DNA from: Rhizobium sp. Q54
Lineage (GTDB): Bacteria > Pseudomonadota > Alphaproteobacteria > Rhizobiales > Xanthobacteraceae
Direction of reading: 5' to 3'
Length of the DNA: 35,355 nt
Assembly (NCBI GenBank): GCA_945870035.1
Contig: CAMBQQ010000037.1
Location: forward strand, 1 to 35,355
Shown: positions 14,819 to 26,067 of the stretch, piece after piece
Position numbering within the stretch: the stretch's first letter is position 1
Layout of the letters: the number at the start of each line of letters is the position of its first letter
Notes under the pieces: generated by a model
Database searches by the model: none
Seen by the model: the letters and a program-made list of their open reading frames with translations, nothing else
Told to the model about the DNA's origin: nothing
Position numbers and translations under genes: made by a program

Positions 14819-15738
14819 GCGAGCGCAAGCTAGTCTGCGTCATCGGTTGGCCGGCGGGGCATTCGCGCTCGCCTCTGATCCACAATTACTGGATCAAGAA
14901 GCACGGCATCGATGCCGAATATCGCATGGAGCCGGTGGCGCCGGAGCAGTTTCCCGACTTCATCGAGAATTTGCGTTTCAACGGCTATGTCGGCTGCAAC
15001 ATCACCGTGCCGCACAAGCAGGTGGCGCTTGAGTTGTCGCTGCCGGACGAGCGCGCCAAGGGCGTCGGCGCGGCGAATTGCCTGTGGTTCGACGGCGACA
15101 AATTGCGTTCGACCAATACGGACGTCGAAGGCTTCCTCGGCAATCTCGATGCCTCGACGCCGGGCTGGGACCGCGGGCTGGAAAGCGCGATGGTTCTCGG
15201 GGCAGGGGGCGGCGCACGCGCCGTGGTTTATGGCCTGCTGCAACGCGACGTGCAGCGCGTCTACGTCGTCAATCGCACGATCGAGCGCGCCGAGGCTTTG
15301 CGCAAGGCGTTCGGGCCGCGCGTCCATCCTGTTGGCTGGAACGAGGTCACCGGGCTGCTCGGCGACGTTGGTCTTCTGGTCAACACGACATCGCTCGGCA
15401 TGGTCGGTCAGCCGCCTTTGGAGATCAATCTGCGCTGCCCGGCCTCGCTGGTGGTGGCGGATCTGGTGTATGTGCCGCTGGAAACCGGCCTGCTGGCGGC
15501 GGCGCGCGAGCGCGGCCTGCGTACGGCCGATGGCCTCGGCATGTTGCTGCATCAGGCGGTGCGCGGTTTCAGTCTCTGGTTCGGCGTCACGCCGGAAGTG
15601 ACGCCGGAGTTGCGTGCGCTGGTCGAAGCCGACCTGGCGGCGACCGCGCCGGCTAAGCCTGCTGCCGACGCCGCGGCATCGAAGACGCCGAAAGTTCGCG
15701 GTCCGAAAGGCTCGCGCAAGACGCCGCGCAATAATTAG
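14815..15738 (+). CDS. aroE: Shikimate dehydrogenase (AroE family)
   Basis: This 307-residue protein is an NADP-dependent shikimate/quinate dehydrogenase. Shikimate-binding SRSPLIHN lies near residue 17, NITVPHK supplies the catalytic Lys and NTDVEGF the catalytic Asp. GAGGGARAVV is the cofactor loop, followed by VNRT, which fits NADP preference. GMLLHQAVRGFSLWFG is the C-terminal substrate helix. Compared with the usual 270-280 residues it has a basic, Ala/Pro/Lys-rich tail of about 30 residues. It is translationally coupled to a fumarylacetoacetate hydrolase-family gene, which suggests a catabolic paralogue (quinate/shikimate or related hydroxyaromatics), though it could be the only aroE of the genome. 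Its stop overlaps the convergent dnaE2 stop by four bases. Confidence 0.88.
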   Translation: MSERKLVCVIGWPAGHSRSPLIHNYWIKKHGIDAEYRMEPVAPEQFPDFIENLRFNGYVGCNITVPHKQVALELSLPDERAKGVGAANCLWFDGDKLRSTNTDVEGFLGNLDASTPGWDRGLESAMVLGAGGGARAVVYGLLQRDVQRVYVVNRTIERAEALRKAFGPRVHPVGWNEVTGLLGDVGLLVNTTSLGMVGQPPLEINLRCPASLVVADLVYVPLETGLLAAARERGLRTADGLGMLLHQAVRGFSLWFGVTPEVTPELRALVEADLAATAPAKPAADAAASKTPKVRGPKGSRKTPRNN

Positions 15739-18700
15739 GCGGAAGGCGCGGCCTTGCGCGTCGGCGCATGCGCCGAGCCGCGCGCGGTGACGTCGAGATC
15801 GCCGGCCAGTTCCGGCATTTCGCGCATCAACTGGATCAACCGCTTTTGGCGGCCGCCCATGGCGCGGGCCTCTCGGTGATCCTCGATCGGGCGGCGCACT
15901 TCGTCGGCGCGCGCCAGCCCTTCGATGTCGGTGCCGTGATCGGCCAGTTGCGCTAGCCAGTGCGTAAGGTCCTCAAGCTGGTCGGCGACCACATGGATGA
16001 CGCCGGATTCCGACTGAACGCGGCCGCTGACCGCGACGAAGCGTGCGCCGAGCACCACCGGGCGCGCGCGCTCGAAGAGTTTCGGCCAGACGATGACATT
16101 GGCGACCGCGCTTTCGTCCTCGATGGTCATGAACACGACGCCCTTGGCCGAGCCGGGCCTTTGCCGGCAGGTGACAAGTCCGGAAATTTTCACGCGCCTG
16201 CCGGTGGCGATATTGCGCAGCGCTTCGTTGCGGACGATGCCGCGCTGGTTGAGATCGGTGCGCAGGAATTGCGCCGGGTGCGCGCGCAGCGACAGCCGCA
16301 GGAAGCGGTAGTCGTTGACGACTTCCTCGCCGAGCGGCATTGGCGGTAGAGAGACGTCGGGCTCGCTATTGATATTGGGCGGGTGCGCGGTTGCAGGTTG
16401 CGCAAACAACGGCAGGTTATCCTTGCTGTCGCCGACGCGGCCGAGCGCCTTGACGGCCCACAAGGCATCGCGCCGCGTGAGGCCGAGAGAGTTGAAGGCA
16501 TCGGCGTCGGCCAGCCGCTCCAGCACGCGCGGCGACAGACCCGTGCGCAGCCAGACATCGCGGGCGGAGTCGTAATCTTTCTTCTCCCTCCCCCTGAAAG
16601 GGGGAGGGTCGGGGTGGGGGTCATTTTGATTGGCGGTGTCGCTAGCGACCCCCACCCGCCCGCCTTCGCTTTCAGCTTCGGCGGGCGACCTCCCCCTTTT
16701 AGGGGGAGGTAAAGAAGAAGAGAGCGGGGGGAGGGGAGAACTGCGCCTCGCCACAATCAACCGCCCATCTTCCTCGCTCAATCCCTTGATCTCGCGCAGG
16801 CCGAGCCGCAGCGCATGCGTCGACCGGATGTCGCCGCTCATCGCGCGGTGCAGGTTGTGCGGCGGCGCCACTTCGCACGGCTCGATCGTCGAATCCCATT
16901 GCGAGTGATTGACGTCCGGCGGCCGCACCTCGATGCCGTGGTCGCGCGCATCGCGCACGATCTGCGCCGGCGCATAAAAGCCCATCGGCTGCGCGTTCAG
17001 CAAGGCGGCTGCGAACACATCCGGGTAATGGCATTTCAGCCAGGCCGAAGCGTAAACCAGCAACGCGAAGCTCGCGGCATGGCTTTCCGGAAAACCATAT
17101 TCGCCGAAGCCCTCGATCTGCTGGAAGCAGCGCTCGGCGAAGCCGCGCTCATAGCCATTGGCCAGCATGCCGTCGATCATCTTGCGCTGGAACGTGCCGA
17201 TGGTGCCGACGCGCTTGAAGGTCGCCATCGCGCGGCGCAACTTGTCGGCCTCCGACGGCGTGAAGTCGGCGGCGACGATGGCGATCTTCATCGCCTGTTC
17301 CTGGAACAGCGGCACGCCGAGCGTCTTCGACAGCACCGCTTCCAGTTCCTTCGACGGATAGGTGACGGTTTCCAGTCCCTGCCGCCGGCGCAGATAAGGA
17401 TGCACCATGTCGCCCTGGATCGGGCCGGGGCGCACGATGGCGACTTCGATGACGAGGTCGTAGAAGTTGGCCGGCTTCAGGCGGGGCAGCATCGTCATCT
17501 GCGCGCGGCTCTCGACCTGGAATACGCCGAGCGAATCCGCGCGTTGCAGCATGCGATAGACGGCGGGGTCTTCGGCGGGGATGGTGGCGAGGGTGAGTCT
17601 GCGTGAGGGAGCGCACACCTCGCTGCTTGCCGCAGTTTGCTCCCTCCCCCCTTGTGGGGGAGGGTTGGGGAGGGGGGTGTATGGCGCTGTCGTCTGAGAT
17701 TGACCCCCCTCCCTGTCCCTCCCCCACAAGGGGGGAGGGAACGATGACGGACAGGCTTCTGAATAATGCCTCTCCATCAAATCGAACGCCTTCCGGATGC
17801 ACGACAGCATGCCGAGGCCGAGCACGTCGATCTTGAGAATGCCGAGCGCGTCGAGATCGTCCTTGTCCCATTCGACGAAGGTGCGGTCCGGCATGGCGCC
17901 ATTGCCGATCGGCATCACCTCGTCGAGCCGGCTGCGGGTGATGACGAAGCCGCCGACATGCTGTGACAGATGGCGCGGGAAGCCGACGATCTCGCGCGCC
18001 AGCGCCGAGATCTGTTTGACGCGGCGGCTGTCCGGATCGAGCCCGGCGCGGGCGAGATCGGCGCGGCCGTCGCCGCCGGCGCCCCAGATCGACGACGCCA
18101 GCGCGCCGATAACGTCTTCGGACAGGCCGAAAGCCTTGCCGACTTCGCGAATGGCGGAGCGGCCGCGATACGAAATCACGGTGGCGGCGATGCCGGCGCG
18201 CTCGCGGCCATATTTTTTATAAATGTATTGAATGACCTCCTCGCGCCGCTCGTGCTCGAAGTCGACGTCGATGTCAGGCGGTTCGCGCCGCTCCGGCGAG
18301 ATGAAGCGCTCGAACAAAAGATCGGCGCGGTCGGGATCGACCTCGGTGACGCCGAGGCAGAAGCACACTGCCGAATTCGCCGCCGAGCCGCGGCCTTGGC
18401 ACAGGATCTTCTGCGAGCGCGCGAAGCGGACGATGTCGTGCACGGTGAGGAAGTAGGGCGCGTAGGCGAGCTGCGCGATCAGCGCTAGTTCGTGCTCGAT
18501 GCTGGCGCGCACTTTATCCGGCAGGCCGTGCGGATAGCGTTGTGCCGCGCCTTCATAGGTCAGGTGGCGCAGCGCATCCTGTGCCGTGTCGAAGCCGGCC
18601 AAGGTCTCGTCGGGATATTCGTATTTCAATTCGTCGAGCGAGAAGGTCAGCGCTTCGCTTAAAGCGAGCGTTTCCTCGATCGCTTCCGGCGCGTCGCGGA

Positions 18701-19397
18701 ACAGCCGCGCCATTTCTTGCGGCGGCTTCAGGTGACGTTCGGCATTGACGGCGAGCTTGCGGCCGGCGCGGTCGATGGTCACCTTCTCGCGGATGCAGGT
18801 CAGCACATCGGTTAGCGGCCGGCGGTCGGGATGGTGATACTGCACGTCGTTGATGGCGATGAGTGGCACCTGACACTCGCGCGCCAGTTCTTGCAGCCGC
18901 GCCAGCCGCGTGCGGTCATGGCCGCGATGGAGCATGGAAGCGGCCAGCCGCACGCGGCCGGGCGCGGCACTTCGCAGGCGCGTCAGCAGTGTCTTGTTGC
19001 CGTCCAGTACGATCAATTCCAATCCGAACGCATGCGCGATCAGGTCATCGAGCGCGAGAACGCACTCGCCTTTTTTGCCGCGCAGATTGCCGAGCGTCAG
19101 CAGGCGCGTCAGCCGGCCCCAACCGGCGCGGTCGCGCGGATAGGCAAGGATGTCCGGCGAGCCATCGGCGAAGACGAGCCGCGCACCGGGGTGATAGATC
19201 AGCGGCAGGTTCTGTTCGCGCTTCGCCAGATGCGCGCGCACCACGCCGGCGACCGAATTGCGATCGCATAGTCCAAGGCCGGCAAGCCCGATCGCGGCCG
19301 CCTGCACCATCAGTTCTTCCGGATGCGACGCGCCGCGCAGGAACGAGAAATTCGAAGCGGTGGCGAATTCGATGTAAGGGGCTTGAAAGGGGGGCAT
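15735..19397 (-). CDS. dnaE2: Error-prone DNA polymerase ImuC/DnaE2 with two in-frame repeat inserts
   Basis: This 1220-residue protein is the catalytic subunit of the SOS mutasome, doing translesion synthesis with ImuA and ImuB. The N-terminal PHP domain begins FATASNFSFLRGASHPEEL. The polymerase palm has the metal-binding Asp pair in PDIDVDFEHER (about residue 376) and the third Asp in KIDVLGLGML (about 523). Then come GVFQVESRAQMTMLPRLKP, the EGFGEYGFPESHAASFALLVYASAWLKCHYP block, and a C-terminal OB fold. Two Pro/Gly-rich inserts at about 546-595 and 888-941 are encoded by palindromic repeats; without them the length would be about 1115, normal for DnaE2. No ribosome site precedes the ATG. 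The gene is separated from imuB by hicAB. It is probably still active, since all catalytic motifs are intact. Confidence 0.95.
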   Translation of the reverse strand: MPPFQAPYIEFATASNFSFLRGASHPEELMVQAAAIGLAGLGLCDRNSVAGVVRAHLAKREQNLPLIYHPGARLVFADGSPDILAYPRDRAGWGRLTRLLTLGNLRGKKGECVLALDDLIAHAFGLELIVLDGNKTLLTRLRSAAPGRVRLAASMLHRGHDRTRLARLQELARECQVPLIAINDVQYHHPDRRPLTDVLTCIREKVTIDRAGRKLAVNAERHLKPPQEMARLFRDAPEAIEETLALSEALTFSLDELKYEYPDETLAGFDTAQDALRHLTYEGAAQRYPHGLPDKVRASIEHELALIAQLAYAPYFLTVHDIVRFARSQKILCQGRGSAANSAVCFCLGVTEVDPDRADLLFERFISPERREPPDIDVDFEHERREEVIQYIYKKYGRERAGIAATVISYRGRSAIREVGKAFGLSEDVIGALASSIWGAGGDGRADLARAGLDPDSRRVKQISALAREIVGFPRHLSQHVGGFVITRSRLDEVMPIGNGAMPDRTFVEWDKDDLDALGILKIDVLGLGMLSCIRKAFDLMERHYSEACPSSFPPPLWGRDREGGQSQTTAPYTPLPNPPPQGGREQTAASSEVCAPSRRLTLATIPAEDPAVYRMLQRADSLGVFQVESRAQMTMLPRLKPANFYDLVIEVAIVRPGPIQGDMVHPYLRRRQGLETVTYPSKELEAVLSKTLGVPLFQEQAMKIAIVAADFTPSEADKLRRAMATFKRVGTIGTFQRKMIDGMLANGYERGFAERCFQQIEGFGEYGFPESHAASFALLVYASAWLKCHYPDVFAAALLNAQPMGFYAPAQIVRDARDHGIEVRPPDVNHSQWDSTIEPCEVAPPHNLHRAMSGDIRSTHALRLGLREIKGLSEEDGRLIVARRSSPLPPLSSSLPPPKRGRSPAEAESEGGRVGVASDTANQNDPHPDPPPFRGREKKDYDSARDVWLRTGLSPRVLERLADADAFNSLGLTRRDALWAVKALGRVGDSKDNLPLFAQPATAHPPNINSEPDVSLPPMPLGEEVVNDYRFLRLSLRAHPAQFLRTDLNQRGIVRNEALRNIATGRRVKISGLVTCRQRPGSAKGVVFMTIEDESAVANVIVWPKLFERARPVVLGARFVAVSGRVQSESGVIHVVADQLEDLTHWLAQLADHGTDIEGLARADEVRRPIEDHREARAMGGRQKRLIQLMREMPELAGDLDVTARGSAHAPTRKAAPSA
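16584..16710. repeat. Palindromic repeat element inside dnaE2 (copy 1)
   Basis: The outer arms are CCTCCCCCTGAAAGGGGGAGG and, at the far side, a close counterpart around TTTT. An inner GGTGGGGGTC pairs with GACCCCCACC, and a further small CGCCCGCC/GGCGGGCG hairpin is present. It is read through in frame by dnaE2 as roughly residues 896-938 with the pattern PPPxxGR...DPPPFRGRE. The same architecture recurs at 17641, 21841, 24227 and 25481. Confidence 0.85.
17641..17740. repeat. Palindromic repeat element inside dnaE2 (copy 2)
   Basis: Two arms of about 38 bases (17641-17678 and 17703-17740) pair with about three mismatches around a 24-base centre. Each arm contains its own C-tract/G-tract hairpin around TTGTG or CACAA. 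dnaE2 reads through it in frame as about residues 553-586, with the pattern PPPLWGR...NPPPQGGRE, the same frame and orientation as copy 1. Confidence 0.85.
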
Positions 19398-19401
19398 TTA
19401 A

Positions 19402-19419
19402 TGTGTATTTATATACACA
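19402..19419. promoter_or_regulatory. AT-rich inverted repeat next to the dnaE2 start
   Basis: TGTGTAT and ATACACA are exact complements around TTAT. On the reverse strand it contains TATAAAT (19413-19407), a good -10 element placed so that transcription would begin only a few bases before the dnaE2 ATG at 19397. No convincing -35 is seen. It also lies about 100 bases upstream of hicA and could be the operator of HicB or another dimeric repressor. Confidence 0.45.
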
Positions 19420-19520
19420 CTGTGCAATGTCTGGAATCGTCCGGACAGGTGGGATTGCCCGCTGCATCGACTTTCAATGAACGAGGCCCACTGCCTCGCA
19501 AATGACGTCGGAGTAGGGCA

Positions 19521-19712
19521 ATGGAACGTAACAGCCGCAAGCTGATCCGAATGTTGGAAAAGGATGGCTGGGTGCTTGATCGCGTGAGTGGCGATCATCA
19601 CACTTTCAAACATCCTGGACGAGACGTGATCATCACCATCACGCACCCGCGCAAGGACTTGCCGACAGGGCTTGTTCGCCGGATTTACAAACTGGCCGGG
19701 TGGCGGTCTTAA
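19521..19712 (+). CDS. hicA: HicA type II toxin (mRNA interferase)
   Basis: This 63-residue protein is a HicA toxin, a small double-stranded-RNA-binding-fold protein that cleaves mRNA independently of ribosomes. The family pattern is clear: RKLIRMLEKDGWVLDRVSGDHHTFKHP contains the active-site His in GDHHTF, followed by the basic PRKDLPTGLVRRIYKLAG tail that packs against HicB. GGAG lies eight bases before the ATG. It is followed 12 bases later by hicB in the usual toxin-first order. The pair stands in opposite orientation between imuB and dnaE2, an unusual place. Base composition (A/T richer than neighbours) fits acquisition by transfer. Confidence 0.93.
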   Translation: MERNSRKLIRMLEKDGWVLDRVSGDHHTFKHPGRDVIITITHPRKDLPTGLVRRIYKLAGWRS

Positions 19713-19724
19713 AGGTTTAAATCG

Positions 19725-20135
19725 ATGTCGATGCATTATGTGGCTGTTGTAGAAAAAGAAGCCGATAGCGCTTTCGGCGTCTGGTTCCCGGACGTAGAGG
19801 GTTGTTTCTCCGCCGGCGATACGCTGGATGAAGCTGTTACCAATGCCGCGGCGGCGTTGCGCCAGCATGTCGAAGCGCTCGAAAGCGCCGCACGGCAGGT
19901 GTGGCCGGCGCGGGACGTGGATGCGGTTCTGCGCGATAAAGATGTCAAAGCATCGCTGAAATCGGGAGCGCTGCTTTTTGCCGTTCCGTTGCTGGCTGAT
20001 GCGGGCCGAACAGTCCGCATCAATGTTTCGCTTGATAAGGCACTTGTCGATCAAATCGATGAAGCGGCGTCGGTGCGGGGGCTGACTCGTTCTGCCTTTA
20101 TTGCGCAGGCCGCACGTGAAAAAATTACCAGCTAG
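19725..20135 (+). CDS. hicB: HicB antitoxin
   Basis: This 136-residue protein neutralises HicA and represses its own operon. The N-terminal partial RNase-H-like domain has the family wording YVAVVEKEADSAFGVWFPDVEGCFSAGDTLDEAVTNAAAAL. The C-terminal ribbon-helix-helix DNA-binding part is VRINVSLDKALVDQIDEAASVRGLTRSAFIAQAARE. AAAGG lies about nine bases before the ATG at 19725; the second ATG at 19731 is possible. Both domains are intact, so the module looks functional. Only 33 bases, without a hairpin, separate its stop from the convergent imuB stop, so readthrough in both directions is likely. Confidence 0.93.
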   Translation: MSMHYVAVVEKEADSAFGVWFPDVEGCFSAGDTLDEAVTNAAAALRQHVEALESAARQVWPARDVDAVLRDKDVKASLKSGALLFAVPLLADAGRTVRINVSLDKALVDQIDEAASVRGLTRSAFIAQAAREKITS

Positions 20136-20168
20136 TTCCGTCATTTTCTGTACTCACCCTTATCAGTC

Positions 20169-21749
20169 TCACGCAAACGTGCCGTGCAGGTACCAGCTCG
20201 GCGGCGCGGCGTTCGGCAGTTCGCCGCGCACCAGATCGCGGTAGAGCCCGGCGCGGTACAGCCAGAAGCGCAGTCCCGTTCTGTCCTCGACGCGGAAGTA
20301 ATCGCGCGCGGCACCTCCCTGTTCGCTCCACCACGCGCCTTCGATGCGCTCGGGGCCTTCCGCCGAAATCACGTCGTGCAGCGCGCGCCGCCATCGGAAC
20401 CGCAAAGGCGGGCCGTCCGGCACTTCGGCCAAAGCCTCGATCGGCTCCGGCCGCGTCAACAGCCGCAGCGGCCGCGGCGCCAGATCGGTCTCGGCGCGAT
20501 GGCGGCGAAAAGCGTCCCAGCCCAAATCTTGACCTGAAAAGTCGGGGCCTACCATTTGCGCCGGCAAGGTCGCGGCGGCGAGTTCGGGAATGTGGCTGTC
20601 GAGCGCGACCGGACGGCGCACGCGCTGCGCGCCGAGCCGCGCGCTCAGGCGGTCGACCAGCCGCGCCAGTTCGCCGGCGTCTTCGGCGTTACCGATGCCG
20701 ATCTGCTCCGGCGGCGACGCTTCGGCGATCACCACCGACAGCCGCGCCATGTCGAAGCCGAAGCCGGGATCGAAGGCGTCGGCCAGAGCCGCCAGCCGTT
20801 CGGAAAACAGCGCGCGGATGTCCGGCGCATCGCGCAGCGGCCGCGAACAGCCGACCGCAATGCGGCGCACCGCGCCGTCGGTGCGGAACAAGGTCAGCTC
20901 GATGCGCCGCGCGCCGTCGCCGCGCCGCTCCAGCGCAACGCCGAGCCGCGCCGCCAGTTTCTCGACGGTGCCGAGCACGTCTTCCTCGCGCGCGATCGGC
21001 TCGTGAAAGCGCTGCTCGGCGACATAGGGCGCGACCGGCAGGCGCGGATTGAGCGGTTCGTGTTCGTGGCCGAGCGCGCGGTCGAGCTGGCGCAGCAACG
21101 ATTGGCCAAAGCGCGCGGTCAGCGGCGAACGCGGCAGATCTATAATGTCGCCGATGCGCTTGAGGCCGACGCGCGCCAATGAGGCCACCGTCGTGGCTTC
21201 AAGCCGCAACGCGGCGAGCGGCAGCGGGCTGACGATATCGCGTTCCTCGCCGGCGGCATAAGCGGCCGGATTGCCGAAGCGCGCCGCCGCAAAGGCCGCG
21301 CCGATGGTGCCGGCAATCGCCACGCGATAGGCAAAGCCGGCGCGCGCCATGCGCTGGCCGAGATCGGCGACCAGCCTCTGCTCGCCGCCGTAAAGATGCG
21401 CGCAGCCGCCGATATCGAGCAGCAAGCCGTCCGGCGCATCGCACGCGACCAGCGGCGTATAGCGCAGGCACCAGTCGGCGATGTTGTCGAGCAAGGCCGC
21501 GTCGGCCTCGGCTTCCTCCATCACGGCCTCGATCGCCGGATGCATGGCGCGCGCCTGCGCCAAAGCGAGGCCCGCATGCAGGCCAAGCTTTTCCGCCGCC
21601 TCGTCGACCGCGGTCAGCACATCGGCATTGCCGCGCCGGCCATAGACGACCAGGGGCGCACTAAACTCACGCAACCTTCTGACGCGGTCGGTTGAGAAGC
21701 GGGGCAGCCACAGGCTGAGCATGCGTTGCGGCGAGGATGAAGCGCTCAT
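20169..21749 (-). CDS. imuB: ImuB, Y-family polymerase-like mutasome protein
   Basis: This 526-residue protein is ImuB, a Y-family DNA polymerase relative that has lost polymerase activity and acts as the hub joining ImuA, DnaE2 and the beta clamp. The start region MLSLWLPRFSTDRVRRL is diagnostic, as are DGLLLDIGGCAHLYGGE, the helix-hairpin-helix region around LARVGLKRIGDIIDLPRSPLTARFG, and the C-terminal GPERIEGAWW...RDYFRVEDRTGLRFWLYR. GGAGAG lies six bases before the ATG at 21749, supporting this start; another ATG at 21722 is possible. The start lies 83 bases inside the imuA 3' end, so the two are coupled. The family role is established; clamp-binding motif position not clear to me. Confidence 0.94.
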   Translation of the reverse strand: MSASSSPQRMLSLWLPRFSTDRVRRLREFSAPLVVYGRRGNADVLTAVDEAAEKLGLHAGLALAQARAMHPAIEAVMEEAEADAALLDNIADWCLRYTPLVACDAPDGLLLDIGGCAHLYGGEQRLVADLGQRMARAGFAYRVAIAGTIGAAFAAARFGNPAAYAAGEERDIVSPLPLAALRLEATTVASLARVGLKRIGDIIDLPRSPLTARFGQSLLRQLDRALGHEHEPLNPRLPVAPYVAEQRFHEPIAREEDVLGTVEKLAARLGVALERRGDGARRIELTLFRTDGAVRRIAVGCSRPLRDAPDIRALFSERLAALADAFDPGFGFDMARLSVVIAEASPPEQIGIGNAEDAGELARLVDRLSARLGAQRVRRPVALDSHIPELAAATLPAQMVGPDFSGQDLGWDAFRRHRAETDLAPRPLRLLTRPEPIEALAEVPDGPPLRFRWRRALHDVISAEGPERIEGAWWSEQGGAARDYFRVEDRTGLRFWLYRAGLYRDLVRGELPNAAPPSWYLHGTFA

Positions 21750-22527
21750 CGGTGTCTCTCCATTCCAGAATCCAGGACCCGAGCGGGCCGCGGCGATTGC
21801 GAACAAGTTGCGCGGCAAAGCGCGGCGCGGCCCCATTTTCACCTCCCCCTGGAGGGGGGAGGTCGCCAGCCAGAGCGGAGCGAAGGCTGGCGGGTGGGGG
21901 TGATCTTTTTTCGTAAGTCACCCCACCCCACCTCGCTTCGCTCGGTGACCCTCCCCCTGCAGGGGAGGGTGAAGAAAGAGAAGGCGCGGCGCCGGCGATC
22001 CAGCGCGTCATCGCGGTTGAGGCGTCGCTCGAAGGCTGCGCGCGCAGCAGCAAAGCCAGTGCACCGCTTTCCGCCGCCGCCAGCGACAGCCGCCGCACCG
22101 CGATCGGATCGATAGCGCCGTGGCGCACTTCGCCGATCACGGCGCCGATGGCGCGGCAGCGCAACGCTTCCTCCATCGCCCACAGCAGGTCACGCTTATT
22201 GGCGACGGCGACAGTGACCAGCCGCTCCGGCGCGCGCTTGAAACAATCGAGCCCGGGGCCGTAGGGCGCGCCGCTTTCAGTGAGCGCCATGTCCTCGGCG
22301 ATCCACAGCAGGTTGCGCGCCGAGGCCGCCAGCCCCAGCGTGAAGCCGGTGGCGGCGGAAAGATGCGCTTCGTTCACCGCCGAAATTTCATGCAGCGCGC
22401 CGCGCGCCAGGCCGCCGCCGAGCGCCGCATCGACGCCGGCCAGGCCGAGCGGCACAGGGCCCGGACCGGCCTCGATCCCGGTCACTTTCTCCATGGCGCG
22501 CAGGCGCTGGCGCAGCTCGTCGAGCAT
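21667..22527 (-). CDS. imuA: ImuA, RecA-like mutasome accessory protein, with in-frame repeat insert
   Basis: This 286-residue protein is ImuA, a RecA/SulA-like partner of ImuB and DnaE2 in SOS mutagenesis. The Walker-A-equivalent region reads LGLAGVDAALGGGLARGALHEI, followed by ATGFTLGLAASARNLLWIAEDMAL and PERLVTVAVANKRDLLWAMEEALRC, all typical. A Pro/Gly/Ser-rich stretch at about residues 187-229 is encoded by a palindromic repeat; the protein then resumes with the conserved FAAQLVRNRRGPLGSWILEW. I chose the ATG at 22527 because AAAGG lies nine bases upstream; an ATG at 22551 has no site. An SOS box lies 62-76 bases upstream. It is the first gene of the imuAB transcript. Confidence 0.93.
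   Translation of the reverse strand: MLDELRQRLRAMEKVTGIEAGPGPVPLGLAGVDAALGGGLARGALHEISAVNEAHLSAATGFTLGLAASARNLLWIAEDMALTESGAPYGPGLDCFKRAPERLVTVAVANKRDLLWAMEEALRCRAIGAVIGEVRHGAIDPIAVRRLSLAAAESGALALLLRAQPSSDASTAMTRWIAGAAPSLSSPSPAGGGSPSEARWGGVTYEKRSPPPASLRSALAGDLPPPGGGENGAAPRFAAQLVRNRRGPLGSWILEWRDTDERFILAATHAQPVAAPLLNRPRQKVA
21841..21970. repeat. Palindromic repeat element inside imuA (copy 3)
   Basis: The outer pieces ACCTCCCCCTGGAGGGGGGA and CCTCCCCCTGCAGGGGAGG and the inner GGTGGGGGTGA versus TCACCCCACC show the same architecture as the copies in dnaE2. imuA reads through it in a different frame (SPSPAGGG...LPPPGGGE). It lies about 90 bases upstream of the imuB start. Confidence 0.83.
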
Positions 22528-22583: not shown

Positions 22584-22589
22584 ATTATG
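22584..22589 (-). promoter_or_regulatory. Putative -10 element of imuA
   Basis: CATAAT on the reverse strand overlaps the downstream end of the SOS box by one base and would give a leader of about 50 bases before the ATG at 22527. No good -35 hexamer is seen, which is usual for LexA-controlled promoters of this group. Confidence 0.45.
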
Positions 22590-22603
22590 TTCCCTATTTG
22601 TTC
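22589..22603 (-). promoter_or_regulatory. LexA/SOS box (GTTC-N7-GTTC)
   Basis: The + strand reads GTTCCCTATTTGTTC, i.e. GAAC-N7-GAAC on the imuA strand, an exact match to the alphaproteobacterial LexA site. Its position upstream of imuA and over the likely -10 region predicts damage-induced expression of imuAB. No second such site is seen upstream of dnaE2. Confidence 0.88.
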
Positions 22604-22714
22604 TAGTGTGCCCAAGGCCAGCGAGACCGTCAAGACGCAAGGGATGGGGGGTCATGAGGCGGCAGGCGGCACCCGTGCTCAGACCCATCAGGGCTGTCGG
22701 AGCGGGATAGGGTC

Positions 22715-22782
22715 CGTTTCCCGGGCGCAGTGCAGCGTGAGCGATAGCGAACGGTGTGCACTGCAGAACCGGGATCGTTCCA
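22715..22782 (+). repeat. Interspersed repeat, arm A of an inverted pair
   Basis: This 68-base unit starts CGTTTCCCGGGCGCAGTGCA, has an internal GTGCACTGCAG palindromic core, and ends GGGATCGTTCCA. It recurs in opposite orientation 11 bases later. The 342-base space between imuA and the DUF3422 gene (22528-22869) holds the imuA promoter, about 110 bases without visible features, and this pair. Confidence 0.75.
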
Positions 22783-22793
22783 AGCGCGGCGCG

Positions 22794-24171: not shown

Positions 24172-24226
24172 GAGCGATTTGTTCGCATGGGAGGCGGATT
24201 CTGACAAGGCGAGGGGGCTTGCTTCT

Positions 24227-24369
24227 TATCCCTCCCCCGCAGGGGGAGGGTGGCCCGCCTGAGCGAATAGCGAAGGCGGGTCGGGTGGGGTTTAGTCGGC
24301 GATAAACAACGAGCCTCGCCCCACCCCCGGCGCTGCGCGCCGGACCCTCCCCGTGACCGGGGAGGGATA
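24227..24369. repeat. Palindromic repeat element, intergenic (copy 4)
   Basis: Outer arms TATCCCTCCCCCGCAGGGGG and its far-side counterpart ending CGGGGAGGGATA enclose inner GGTGGGG and CCCCACC pieces and small GGCGGG-type hairpins, as in the copies inside dnaE2 and imuA. It lies between the divergent DUF3422 and flavin-dependent oxidoreductase genes, so any promoters must lie beside it. Confidence 0.82.
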
Positions 24370-24454: not shown

Positions 24455-25474
24455 ATGAAAAAACTCGGTTTCCTCTCCTTCGGCCACTGGACCCCGTCAT
24501 CGCAATCGCAGGTGCGCAGCGCCTCGGATGCGCTGCTGCAATCGATCGAGCTGGCGGTCGCCGCCGAACAACTCGGCCTCGACGGCGCATACTTCCGCGT
24601 GCATCACTTCGCGCGCCAACTCGGCTCGCCGTTTCCGCTGCTCGCCGCTTCCGCCGCGCGCACCTCTAAGATCGAACTCGGCACCGCCGTCATCGATATG
24701 CGCTATGAAAACCCGCTCTACATGGCGGAAGACGCAAGCGCCGCCGATTTGATTTCGCGCGGTCGTTTGCAACTCGGCATTTCGCGCGGCTCGCCCGAGC
24801 AGGTGATCGATGGCTTCCGCCATTTCGGTTACGTGCCGGCCGAAGGCATGACCGACGCCGACATGGCGCGCGGCCACACCGAAGTGTTTCTGCAAGTGCT
24901 GAGCGGGCAGGGCTTCGCCAAGCCGAACCCGTCGCCGATGTTTCCCAATCCGCCCGGCCTGCTGCGGCTCGAGCCTTATTCGGAAGGCCTGCGCGAGCGC
25001 ATCTGGTGGGGCGCCGGCACCAATGCGACGGCGCAATGGGCGGCCAAGCTCGGCATGAACCTGCAGTCGTCGACGCTGAAGATCGACGAAAGCGGCAAGC
25101 CGTTTCATGTGCAGCAGGCCGAACAGATCCGGCTCTATAAAGAGGCGTGGAAAGAGGCGGGACACACGCGCACGCCGCGCGTCTCGGTGTCGCGCAGCAT
25201 TTTCGCTTTGGTCGATGACCGCGACCGCATGTATTTCGGCGGCGGCGACGACAAGGACCAGGTCGGTTATCTCGGCGGTACCGAGCGCGCCATTTTCGGC
25301 CGCGGTTATGCGGCCGAACCGGATGTGCTGATCGAGCAGTTGAAGAAGGACGAGGGCATTGCCGAGGCGGATACGTTGCTGCTGACGGTGCCGAACCAGT
25401 TGGGCGTCGATTACAACGCGCATGTCATCGAGGCCATCCTGAAACACGTCGCGCCGGGGGTTGGATGGCGGTGA
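24455..25474 (+). CDS. LLM-class flavin-dependent oxidoreductase (luciferase-like)
   Basis: This 339-residue protein is a second luciferase-like flavin oxidoreductase, of a different subgroup from the one at 2233. The start MKKLGFLSFGHWTP is the first barrel strand. Further features are LAVAAEQLGLDGAYFRVHHFARQ with the paired His, TSKIELGTAVIDMRYENPLYMAEDASAADLIS, and GRLQLGISRGSPE. The C-terminal part TADTLLLTVPNQLGVDYN-like wording matches the family described as alkanal monooxygenase-like. The reaction and substrate are unknown. It is a single-gene unit, flanked on both sides by copies of the palindromic repeat. Confidence 0.87.
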   Translation: MKKLGFLSFGHWTPSSQSQVRSASDALLQSIELAVAAEQLGLDGAYFRVHHFARQLGSPFPLLAASAARTSKIELGTAVIDMRYENPLYMAEDASAADLISRGRLQLGISRGSPEQVIDGFRHFGYVPAEGMTDADMARGHTEVFLQVLSGQGFAKPNPSPMFPNPPGLLRLEPYSEGLRERIWWGAGTNATAQWAAKLGMNLQSSTLKIDESGKPFHVQQAEQIRLYKEAWKEAGHTRTPRVSVSRSIFALVDDRDRMYFGGGDDKDQVGYLGGTERAIFGRGYAAEPDVLIEQLKKDEGIAEADTLLLTVPNQLGVDYNAHVIEAILKHVAPGVGWR

Positions 25475-25480
25475 GCTTTC

Positions 25481-25627
25481 TTCCCTCTCCCCGTTTACGG
25501 GGAGAGGGTGCCGAGTGAACGCTTGTGAGCGAGGCGGGTGAGGGGCACTGGCGGCATAGACTGCCCCTCACCCGCCTCGCAGCTTCGCTGCTCGCCACCC
25601 TCTCCCCGCAAGAGCGGGGCGAGGGAA
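25481..25627. repeat. Palindromic repeat element, intergenic (copy 5)
   Basis: The element begins TTCCCTCTCCCCGTTTACGG, each end forming its own hairpin, and finishes GGGGCGAGGGAA; the inner GAGGCGGGTGAGGGGC pairs with GCCCCTCACCCGCCTC. It fills the space between two convergent genes (stops at 25474 and 25630) and can terminate both. Confidence 0.85.
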
Positions 25628-25629
25628 GG

Positions 25630-26067
25630 TCACCGCACCAACTTCTGTAACGCGGTCTTGAGTTTCTCCGGCAACGCCACCGGCCTGTTGCTGGTGCGAT
25701 CGACGAACACATGCACGGCATGCCCTTGCGCCGACGCGGTGGTTTCGCCGTTGCGGAAGATGCCGATTTCGTATTTGACGCTCGACGTGCCGAGACGCGA
25801 CACACGCAATCCGGCGCGGATTTTATCAGGATAGGCGACGGGGCTGAAATAATTGCAGTGCGTTTCTACCATCAGGCCGATCACGGCGCTGTTGGCGATG
25901 TCGAGCCCGCCTTGCGCGATCAGATATTCGTTCACCACGGTGTCGAAGAACGAGTAGTAGACCACGTTGTTGATGTGGCCGTAGGCGTCGTTGTCCATCC
26001 AGCGCGTGGTGATGGCGGTGAAATGCGCGAAGTCGGAAACGGTGAGCGGCGCGGGCCGATCCGACAT
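25630..26067 (-). CDS. Acyl-CoA thioesterase (4HBT hotdog family)
   Basis: This 145-residue protein has the 4-hydroxybenzoyl-CoA thioesterase-type hotdog signature ITTRWMDNDAYGHINNVVYYSFFDTVVNEYL, with the catalytic Asp in the DxDxxGHxNN-like motif (here MDNDAYGHINN). VETHCNYFSPVAYPDKIRAGLRVSRLGTSSVKYEIGIF follows and is also typical. Such cytosolic enzymes hydrolyse acyl-CoA thioesters of medium-chain or aromatic acids. Its start is three bases after the stop of the alpha-hydroxyacid oxidase on the same strand, so the two form an operon. Exact substrate unknown. Confidence 0.88.
   Translation of the reverse strand: MSDRPAPLTVSDFAHFTAITTRWMDNDAYGHINNVVYYSFFDTVVNEYLIAQGGLDIANSAVIGLMVETHCNYFSPVAYPDKIRAGLRVSRLGTSSVKYEIGIFRNGETTASAQGHAVHVFVDRTSNRPVALPEKLKTALQKLVR

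Follow-up and report, generated by a model that had tools for sequence, protein, structure and literature searches.

How do palindromic DNA repeats come to lie in frame inside genes of the SOS mutagenesis machinery, and do they matter there? The question is raised by a 35,355-nucleotide stretch (the window), contig C37 of a draft genome (4.12 Mb, 189 contigs). It carries an SOS-type imuA-imuB-dnaE2 locus, identified through Pfam and NCBIfam, with all three genes on the minus strand. An earlier note, made from the DNA letters alone, had proposed that three such repeats are embedded in frame in imuA and dnaE2, and that they may be neutral in loops or may tune mutasome assembly. In-frame insertion is supported, since close relatives have empty sites. 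The segments belong to a dispersed repeat type absent at these sites from several close relatives, keep the reading frame, fall in stretches predicted to be disordered, and occupy sites shared by at least three families of palindromes. We conclude that they are probably non-autonomous mobile palindromic repeats that inserted into imuA and dnaE2, are mostly purged from genes, and are tolerated in disordered loops.

The copies and variants in the window are the following.

16580 to 16713, minus strand: element 1, in dnaE2 (core site 844), with two C/T-tract hairpins and an inner GGTGGGG/CCCCACC pair
17639 to 17742, minus strand: element 2, in dnaE2 (core site 554), with two C/T-tract hairpins and the inner arm GGGGAGGGGGG, without GGTGGGG
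21838 to 21972, minus strand: element 3, in imuA (core site 199), giving a 41-residue insert (189-229 of 286) that is modelled as a loop between two strands
24222 to 24319, unstranded: intergenic copy, for which a strict scan gives one terminal C/T hairpin, with GGTGGGG/CCCCACC
25471 to 25640, unstranded: variant copy, with a CCCTCTCCCC hairpin and GGTGAGGGG/CCCCTCACC, located in the gap between two genes and reaching the 3' end of one of them

The in-gene elements measure ~100-135 bp. As the earlier note described, each has hairpins at both ends, formed by C/T tracts (16586-16608/16689-16709, 17642-17664/17716-17740, and 21842-21862/21949-21969). The inner GGTGGGG/CCCCACC pair claimed for all copies is absent from the one at 17641, which has GGGGAGGGGGG, and from the one at 25481, which has GGTGAGGGG/CCCCTCACC. 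The intergenic copies at 24227 and 25481 are related variants of the same architecture, but each shows a single terminal hairpin in the strict scan. Element 1 codes for most of a 53-residue insert in DnaE2 (residues 888-940) and element 2 for most of a 52-residue insert (residues 548-599). Both dnaE2 and imuA are open throughout, so that the frames run intact through all three elements. The two dnaE2 copies use one frame and the imuA copy another, as had been noted; their common orientation means little, because the elements are near-palindromes. As coding-strand RNA, the three fold at z-scores of -9.40, -9.35, and -7.56 (against 200 dinucleotide shuffles each). A search of Rfam gave 34 matches (E up to 1), to microRNA models only, and those on the hairpins all score below the gathering thresholds; we take them as chance matches due to the long stems.

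Comparison with relatives carries the case for insertion. In alignments with relatives, similarity to normal ImuA and DnaE2 breaks and restarts at the inserts, as predicted from the window. In the 60 genomes searched, ImuA homologues (e.g., in G012, G013, and G030) have shorter frames and align up to residue ~193-203 of the 295 first listed and again from 242, and alignments of DnaE2 homologues break at several points. At the DNA level, the close relative L160, whose right flank is 99% identical, has an empty, variable imuA site; in several close relatives the sites are empty and the proteins shorter. Removal of the inserts restores normal lengths: ImuA without its 41 residues has 245, versus 243-256 in insert-free relatives, and DnaE2 without its 52 and 53 residues has 1115, versus 1087, 1113, and 1124 in L083, L077, and L156, all without an insert of at least 12 residues.

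It could be argued that nothing was inserted, and that ancestral variable loops drifted into palindromic sequence. Indeed, 41-54 extra, non-palindromic residues occupy DnaE2 core 131 in the distant relatives L085-L087, two of which have such sequence at core 554 as well; because of this unrelated sequence, the DnaE2 sites must be regarded as variable in length anyway. The earlier note had named equally long unrelated sequence in relatives as what would speak against insertion. We find it at DnaE2 sites in these distant taxa, but not in close relatives, which have short loops there. Moreover, the segments have counterparts among dispersed repeats at other places in the genome, and we regard drift without insertion as scarcely credible.

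The dispersal of the repeat was assessed, as the earlier note had proposed, in a sample of its own genome made of forty 20-kb stretches plus the window (835,355 bases, 750 genes by our own calls). We found 68 C/T-rich 8-bp hairpins, versus none in one copy of the sample shuffled in two-base blocks. The hairpins make up 42 elements, of which 36 are intergenic and 6 lie in genes; because 86% of the sample is coding, this amounts to strong depletion from genes. A further 28 stretches around known matches hold 45 elements, of which 43 are intergenic, one lies at a gene end, and one lies in a 198-residue open reading frame (ORF) in L262; this ORF was left out of the gene counts and, if genuine, would add another host. 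The window elements agree with intragenic palindromic repeats in being dispersed repeats that lie wholly in an open ORF, with shorter, repeat-free homologues in related species.

The element is not built to code, because frames are open no more often in intergenic copies than in shuffled sequence and because dnaE2 of two relatives changes frame at an insert. Among 45 full intergenic elements, 40% of frames are open, compared with 46% after dinucleotide shuffling and 30% in random intergenic DNA, and lengths modulo 3 are distributed 11/25/9. We therefore rejected the idea of an element selected to code. Out-of-frame inserts also exist: The frame of dnaE2 changes at the core-844 insert in L149 (G004) and L161 (G013), a change that errors in G/C tracts could mimic. 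These two cases, together with the state of the assembly, a draft of 189 contigs, bring up the possibility that the inserts themselves are assembly errors in G/C tracts, or sit in genes already inactive. We consider this very unlikely. The window has open frames in all three genes and an intact LexA-type box, other assemblies have the same sites filled, and codon changes in dnaE2 between the window and L071 are mostly synonymous (252 synonymous versus 153 non-synonymous of 1204 codons). For a second pair, L069 and L071, the counts are 225 and 119 of 1219.

Structural models predict that the inserts are disordered. In the ImuA model (mean predicted local distance difference test score, pLDDT, 77.8; RecA-like by Foldseek), residues 189-229 form a low-confidence loop between two strands. 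The DnaE2 model covers the fragment of residues 430-1010 at a mean pLDDT of only 66.9. Residues 552-596 and 899-938 fall below 50, and the second stretch is flanked by others above 90; disorder of the first insert is less telling, because other parts of the model are also poor. The solved relatives of DnaE2 by sequence are Pol III alpha chains (e.g., 5fku and 2hpi).

We aligned 32 ImuA, 37 ImuB, and 40 DnaE2 sequences, counting inserts of at least 12 residues. Most inserts fall at few sites: core 79 and 199 in ImuA, core 29 in ImuB, and core 131, 554, ~800, 844, and 910 in DnaE2. Their DNA comes from at least three palindrome families, namely, the C/T-tract elements, CGTCATTCC...GGAATGACG types, and CCGGGCGCAG types; a 20-residue palindromic insert at DnaE2 core 802 of L069, L071, and L082 may represent a fourth. 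One site can host different families: at DnaE2 core 131, the insert is a C/T-tract element in L160, L071, and L076 but CGTC-like in L072. Insert presence is patchy between sister taxa, and at least 32 gain or loss steps over 8 sites are needed on a 37-taxon DnaE2 tree (presence by a fold-energy rule), a count in which some rows are partial genes and gene exchange would reduce the number of insertions. We also observed a CGTC-like palindromic insert of 55 residues at another DnaE2 site, core 799, in the Bauldia-labelled L091. At DnaE2 core 910, the inserts of L069, L074, and L076 start a few residues past a D(N/D)LPLF peptide, which we take to resemble a sliding-clamp-binding motif.

The inserts might be retained for changing the enzymes of repair and mutagenesis, through mutator tuning or mutasome assembly, as also speculated by Di Nocera, De Gregorio and Rocco (2013; PMC3733652). 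All three mutasome proteins have inserts in some relatives (e.g., L078 from Pseudolabrys sp. Root1462, L080, and L081), and repair genes recur as hosts both here and in the available part of that paper. Nevertheless, sister taxa differ freely in their inserts, different families and unrelated sequences occupy one site, and LeuRS and metabolic enzymes are hosts as well. Nor do shared inserts, tiny as the numbers are, point to amino acid constraint: at core 554, the window and L071 differ at two non-synonymous and no synonymous codons in the first 39, and at core 844, L069 and L071 differ at three of each kind among 40. Retention for enzyme tuning thus seems unlikely to us. Between the two outcomes raised by the earlier note, neutrality in loops is the better supported, through the predicted disorder, the lack of amino acid constraint in these small samples, and the other families or unrelated sequence at the same sites; we found no direct support for tuning of mutasome assembly.

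The identity of the host genes is less easily accommodated. In the 835-kb sample, the C/T-tract family lies inside the genes for DnaE2, ImuA, PolA, UvrB, and LeuRS; among the 748 called genes other than the first two, only the last three have a C/T element, and no further gene does. The pair CGTCATTCC/GGAATGACG occurs 25 times in the sample, 15 of them in called genes; 14 of these are lone 9-mers, which we take as chance, and the sole in-gene dimer lies in a gene for an HrpB-type helicase. For relatives, we inspected 34 distinct repeat-peptide matches among the matches listed, in two sets of 20 and 15 loci with one match in common, picked for open-frame length with function disregarded, after setting aside those already known inside dnaE2 or imuA. 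Called genes contain ten of the 34: two in UvrA, two in UvrB, one in LeuRS, and five in metabolic enzymes (two indolepyruvate-oxidoreductase-like proteins, an FAD/Fe-S oxidase, an FAD monooxygenase-like protein, and a hydantoinase). The excess of nucleic-acid enzymes is therefore not exclusive.

Counting by gene, a C/T hairpin is present in 10 of 36 DnaE2, 10 of 27 UvrB, 6 of 28 PolA, 4 of 28 ImuA, 1 of 33 ImuB, and 3 of 24 UvrA genes. The 36 DnaE2 genes include partial genes, with several fragments for some genomes, and exclude the duplicates L155, L158, L167, and L168 and the outgroups L088-L091; named contigs and genomes overlap in the set of relatives, so that not all taxa are independent. 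Fisher tests against the replicative paralogue DnaE1 gave p = 0.009 for DnaE2, 0.003 for UvrB, and 0.03 for PolA, values that are optimistic because the sequences are related, some are fragments, and DnaE2, PolA, UvrB, and UvrA were picked as element carriers. In PolA the insert falls between the 5'-3' and 3'-5' exonuclease domains and in LeuRS directly past the editing domain, in both cases between Pfam domains; UvrB inserts are mostly near the two ends. As a side observation, polA is split between contigs near the element-bearing linker in L354, L355, L360, and L361 (G002, G012, G006, and G016), as if repeats broke the assemblies.

Several results weigh against mobile repeats that are merely tolerated. 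We established no target-site duplication or clean insertion border. We found no mobilising enzyme: The Y1 (RAYT) transposase family PF01797, which gave matches in 5 of 14 known genomes as a control, has none in this draft, which is 91% complete; other transposase families were not searched. The six host genes identified in the 835-kb sample all encode proteins that act on nucleic acids, for which tolerance offers no obvious explanation; an unbiased count, without the window, which was chosen beforehand, is four of four. Finally, DnaE1, which shares its overall fold with DnaE2, has a C/T hairpin in none of 21 genes, which tolerance can accommodate only if permissive loops are scarcer in the essential replicase.

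The host list, with DnaE2, ImuA, PolA, UvrB, LeuRS, and HrpB among 750 called genes, could instead mean that elements are directed to certain genes at insertion, such as SOS-induced genes or those of nucleic-acid-binding proteins, with selection playing a minor part. We hold this to be improbable: Most copies are intergenic, and the in-gene positions are linkers or loops, which points to selection afterwards. SOS control, considered as the common factor of the hosts, was rejected, because no exact GTTC-N7-GTTC box lies within ~400 nt upstream of uvrB, polA, or leuS in this genome. A conceivable source of bias, which we rate as highly doubtful, is that proteins with affinity for stem-loops or single-stranded DNA attach to the hairpin of the element while they are nascent and tethered to their genes by coupled transcription and translation, and guide copies into those genes; the candidate binders would be repair polymerases, UvrA/UvrB, helicases, and tRNA synthetases. 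If true, self-guided insertion would explain why the same odd set of genes is found in this genus and in the bacteria of the 2013 survey.

Under the reading that we prefer, insertion followed by tolerance, the repeat consists of two terminal C/T-tract hairpins around an inner stem, and its insertion would be blind to frame. Most insertions into genes would be lost; an element would survive in a surface loop or linker if its frame is open and its length a multiple of three, and there it would add a disordered Pro/Gly/Arg-rich segment of little consequence. The large nucleic-acid enzymes DnaE2, ImuA, UvrA, UvrB, PolA, LeuRS, and HrpB may be over-represented for their long variable linkers, and SOS genes because they are seldom expressed. 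The insert sites mark loops of the mutasome able to carry extra sequence. Related genomes in which fixed sites of three interacting proteins have gained and lost inserts many times, together with a paralogue lacking inserts as control and several repeat families as replicates, make tolerance, tuning, and targeting comparable. The point that merits further work is the excess of nucleic-acid enzymes, found both in this genome and in the 2013 survey. Why palindromic repeats occur in repair genes is a question raised in the accessible text of PMC3733652, and it is not settled in the searchable literature, which covers few subscription journals.

The locus itself comprises the following features.

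15735 to 19397, minus strand: dnaE2, error-prone DNA polymerase III alpha-type, 1220 residues, two in-frame elements (Pfam, NCBIfam, open frame)
20169 to 21749, minus strand: imuB, Y-family-like polymerase homologue, 526 residues (Pfam, relatives)
21667 to 22527, minus strand: imuA, 286 residues, one in-frame element, RecA-like fold (position, relatives, predicted fold)
22589 to 22603, unstranded: LexA-type SOS box GTTCCCTATTTGTTC, upstream of imuA, the sole exact GTTC-N7-GTTC match in the window

The presence of imuA, imuB, and dnaE2 together with a LexA-type box agrees with an ImuA-ImuB-DnaE2 mutasome locus. The imuB gene of this genome is without an element. The imuA frame, first listed with 295 residues, has 286 from the start at 22527, a better fit to relatives; the NCBIfam ImuA model scores below its cut-off (53.1 versus 150 bits), but position, relatives, and fold support the identity. 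Of the 32 loci listed, 27 have a LexA-type box no more than 120 nt upstream of imuA; among the five that lack one, L080 and L085 are truncated within imuA. In the window, imuB and dnaE2 are 771 nt apart, versus at most 163 nt in 26 of 31 other loci, and a HicA/HicB-type toxin-antitoxin pair (19521-19712 and 19725-20135, plus strand) lies between the two genes on the opposite strand. An extra palindrome at ~22701-22790, upstream of imuA, is similar to inserts of the CCGGGCGCAG type that L079 has in ImuB and L151 in DnaE2. From the labels of the nearest named contigs (Bradyrhizobiaceae, Rhizobiales, and Pseudolabrys), we take the source organism to be Pseudolabrys-like.

Rickettsia palindromic elements (RPE) occur in frame within genes and lengthen the encoded proteins by tens of residues. 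The window elements work in the same way, and the likeness to RPE drawn in the earlier note is fair as one by description. Unlike RPE, the hosts here are free-living relatives, the elements are GC-rich, and intergenic copies show no excess of open frames. Another likeness is to Br-REP1 and Br-REP2 of Bradyrhizobium. Br-REP1, found scattered through intergenic regions in related bacteria, occurs alone or with flanking palindromes (three stem-loops); its core, CCGGAATCTCGAGATTCCGG, differs from the window elements, and in-gene copies are not discussed in the part of the paper available (PMC5082802).

The nearer precedent is the repetitive extragenic palindromes (REPs) that lie inside genes, DnaE2 and repair genes among them. 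In the available text of PMC3733652, REPs wholly inside ORFs and in frame are over-represented in genes of DNA synthesis and repair, with UvrABC, PolA, RecBCD, DnaE2, tRNA synthetases, and RNA helicases named as hosts, a list close to that of the window genome; its authors speculated on mutators and allowed neutral inserts in linkers. The same text defines REPs by a terminal GTAG or CGTC (TGTC, CCTC) tag, with CGTC stems of 8-9 bp that begin with AT pairs. The three window elements have neither GTAG nor CGTC, and a CCTC start is present but is followed by a C tract, not AT; CGTCATT occurs in the window only outside them. They are longer C/T-tract double hairpins outside the GTAG/CGTC superfamily, although CGTC-like inserts, resembling CGTC REPs, occupy the same mutasome sites in relatives. 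According to the available text, REPs in genes of one functional category lie at different sites, except in recB of two Xanthomonas, whereas here sites recur across related genomes; ImuA, ImuB, and Pseudolabrys find no mention in its main text as available. The phenomenon is of the same kind as the intragenic REPs of 2013, and the idea is not new. What is added is a C/T-tract element without GTAG/CGTC tags; ImuA and ImuB as further hosts; eight recurrent sites in three proteins, filled from at least three palindrome families through at least 32 steps on the DnaE2 tree, with no element found in 21 DnaE1 genes; and six identified host genes in an 835-kb sample of one genome that all act on nucleic acids.

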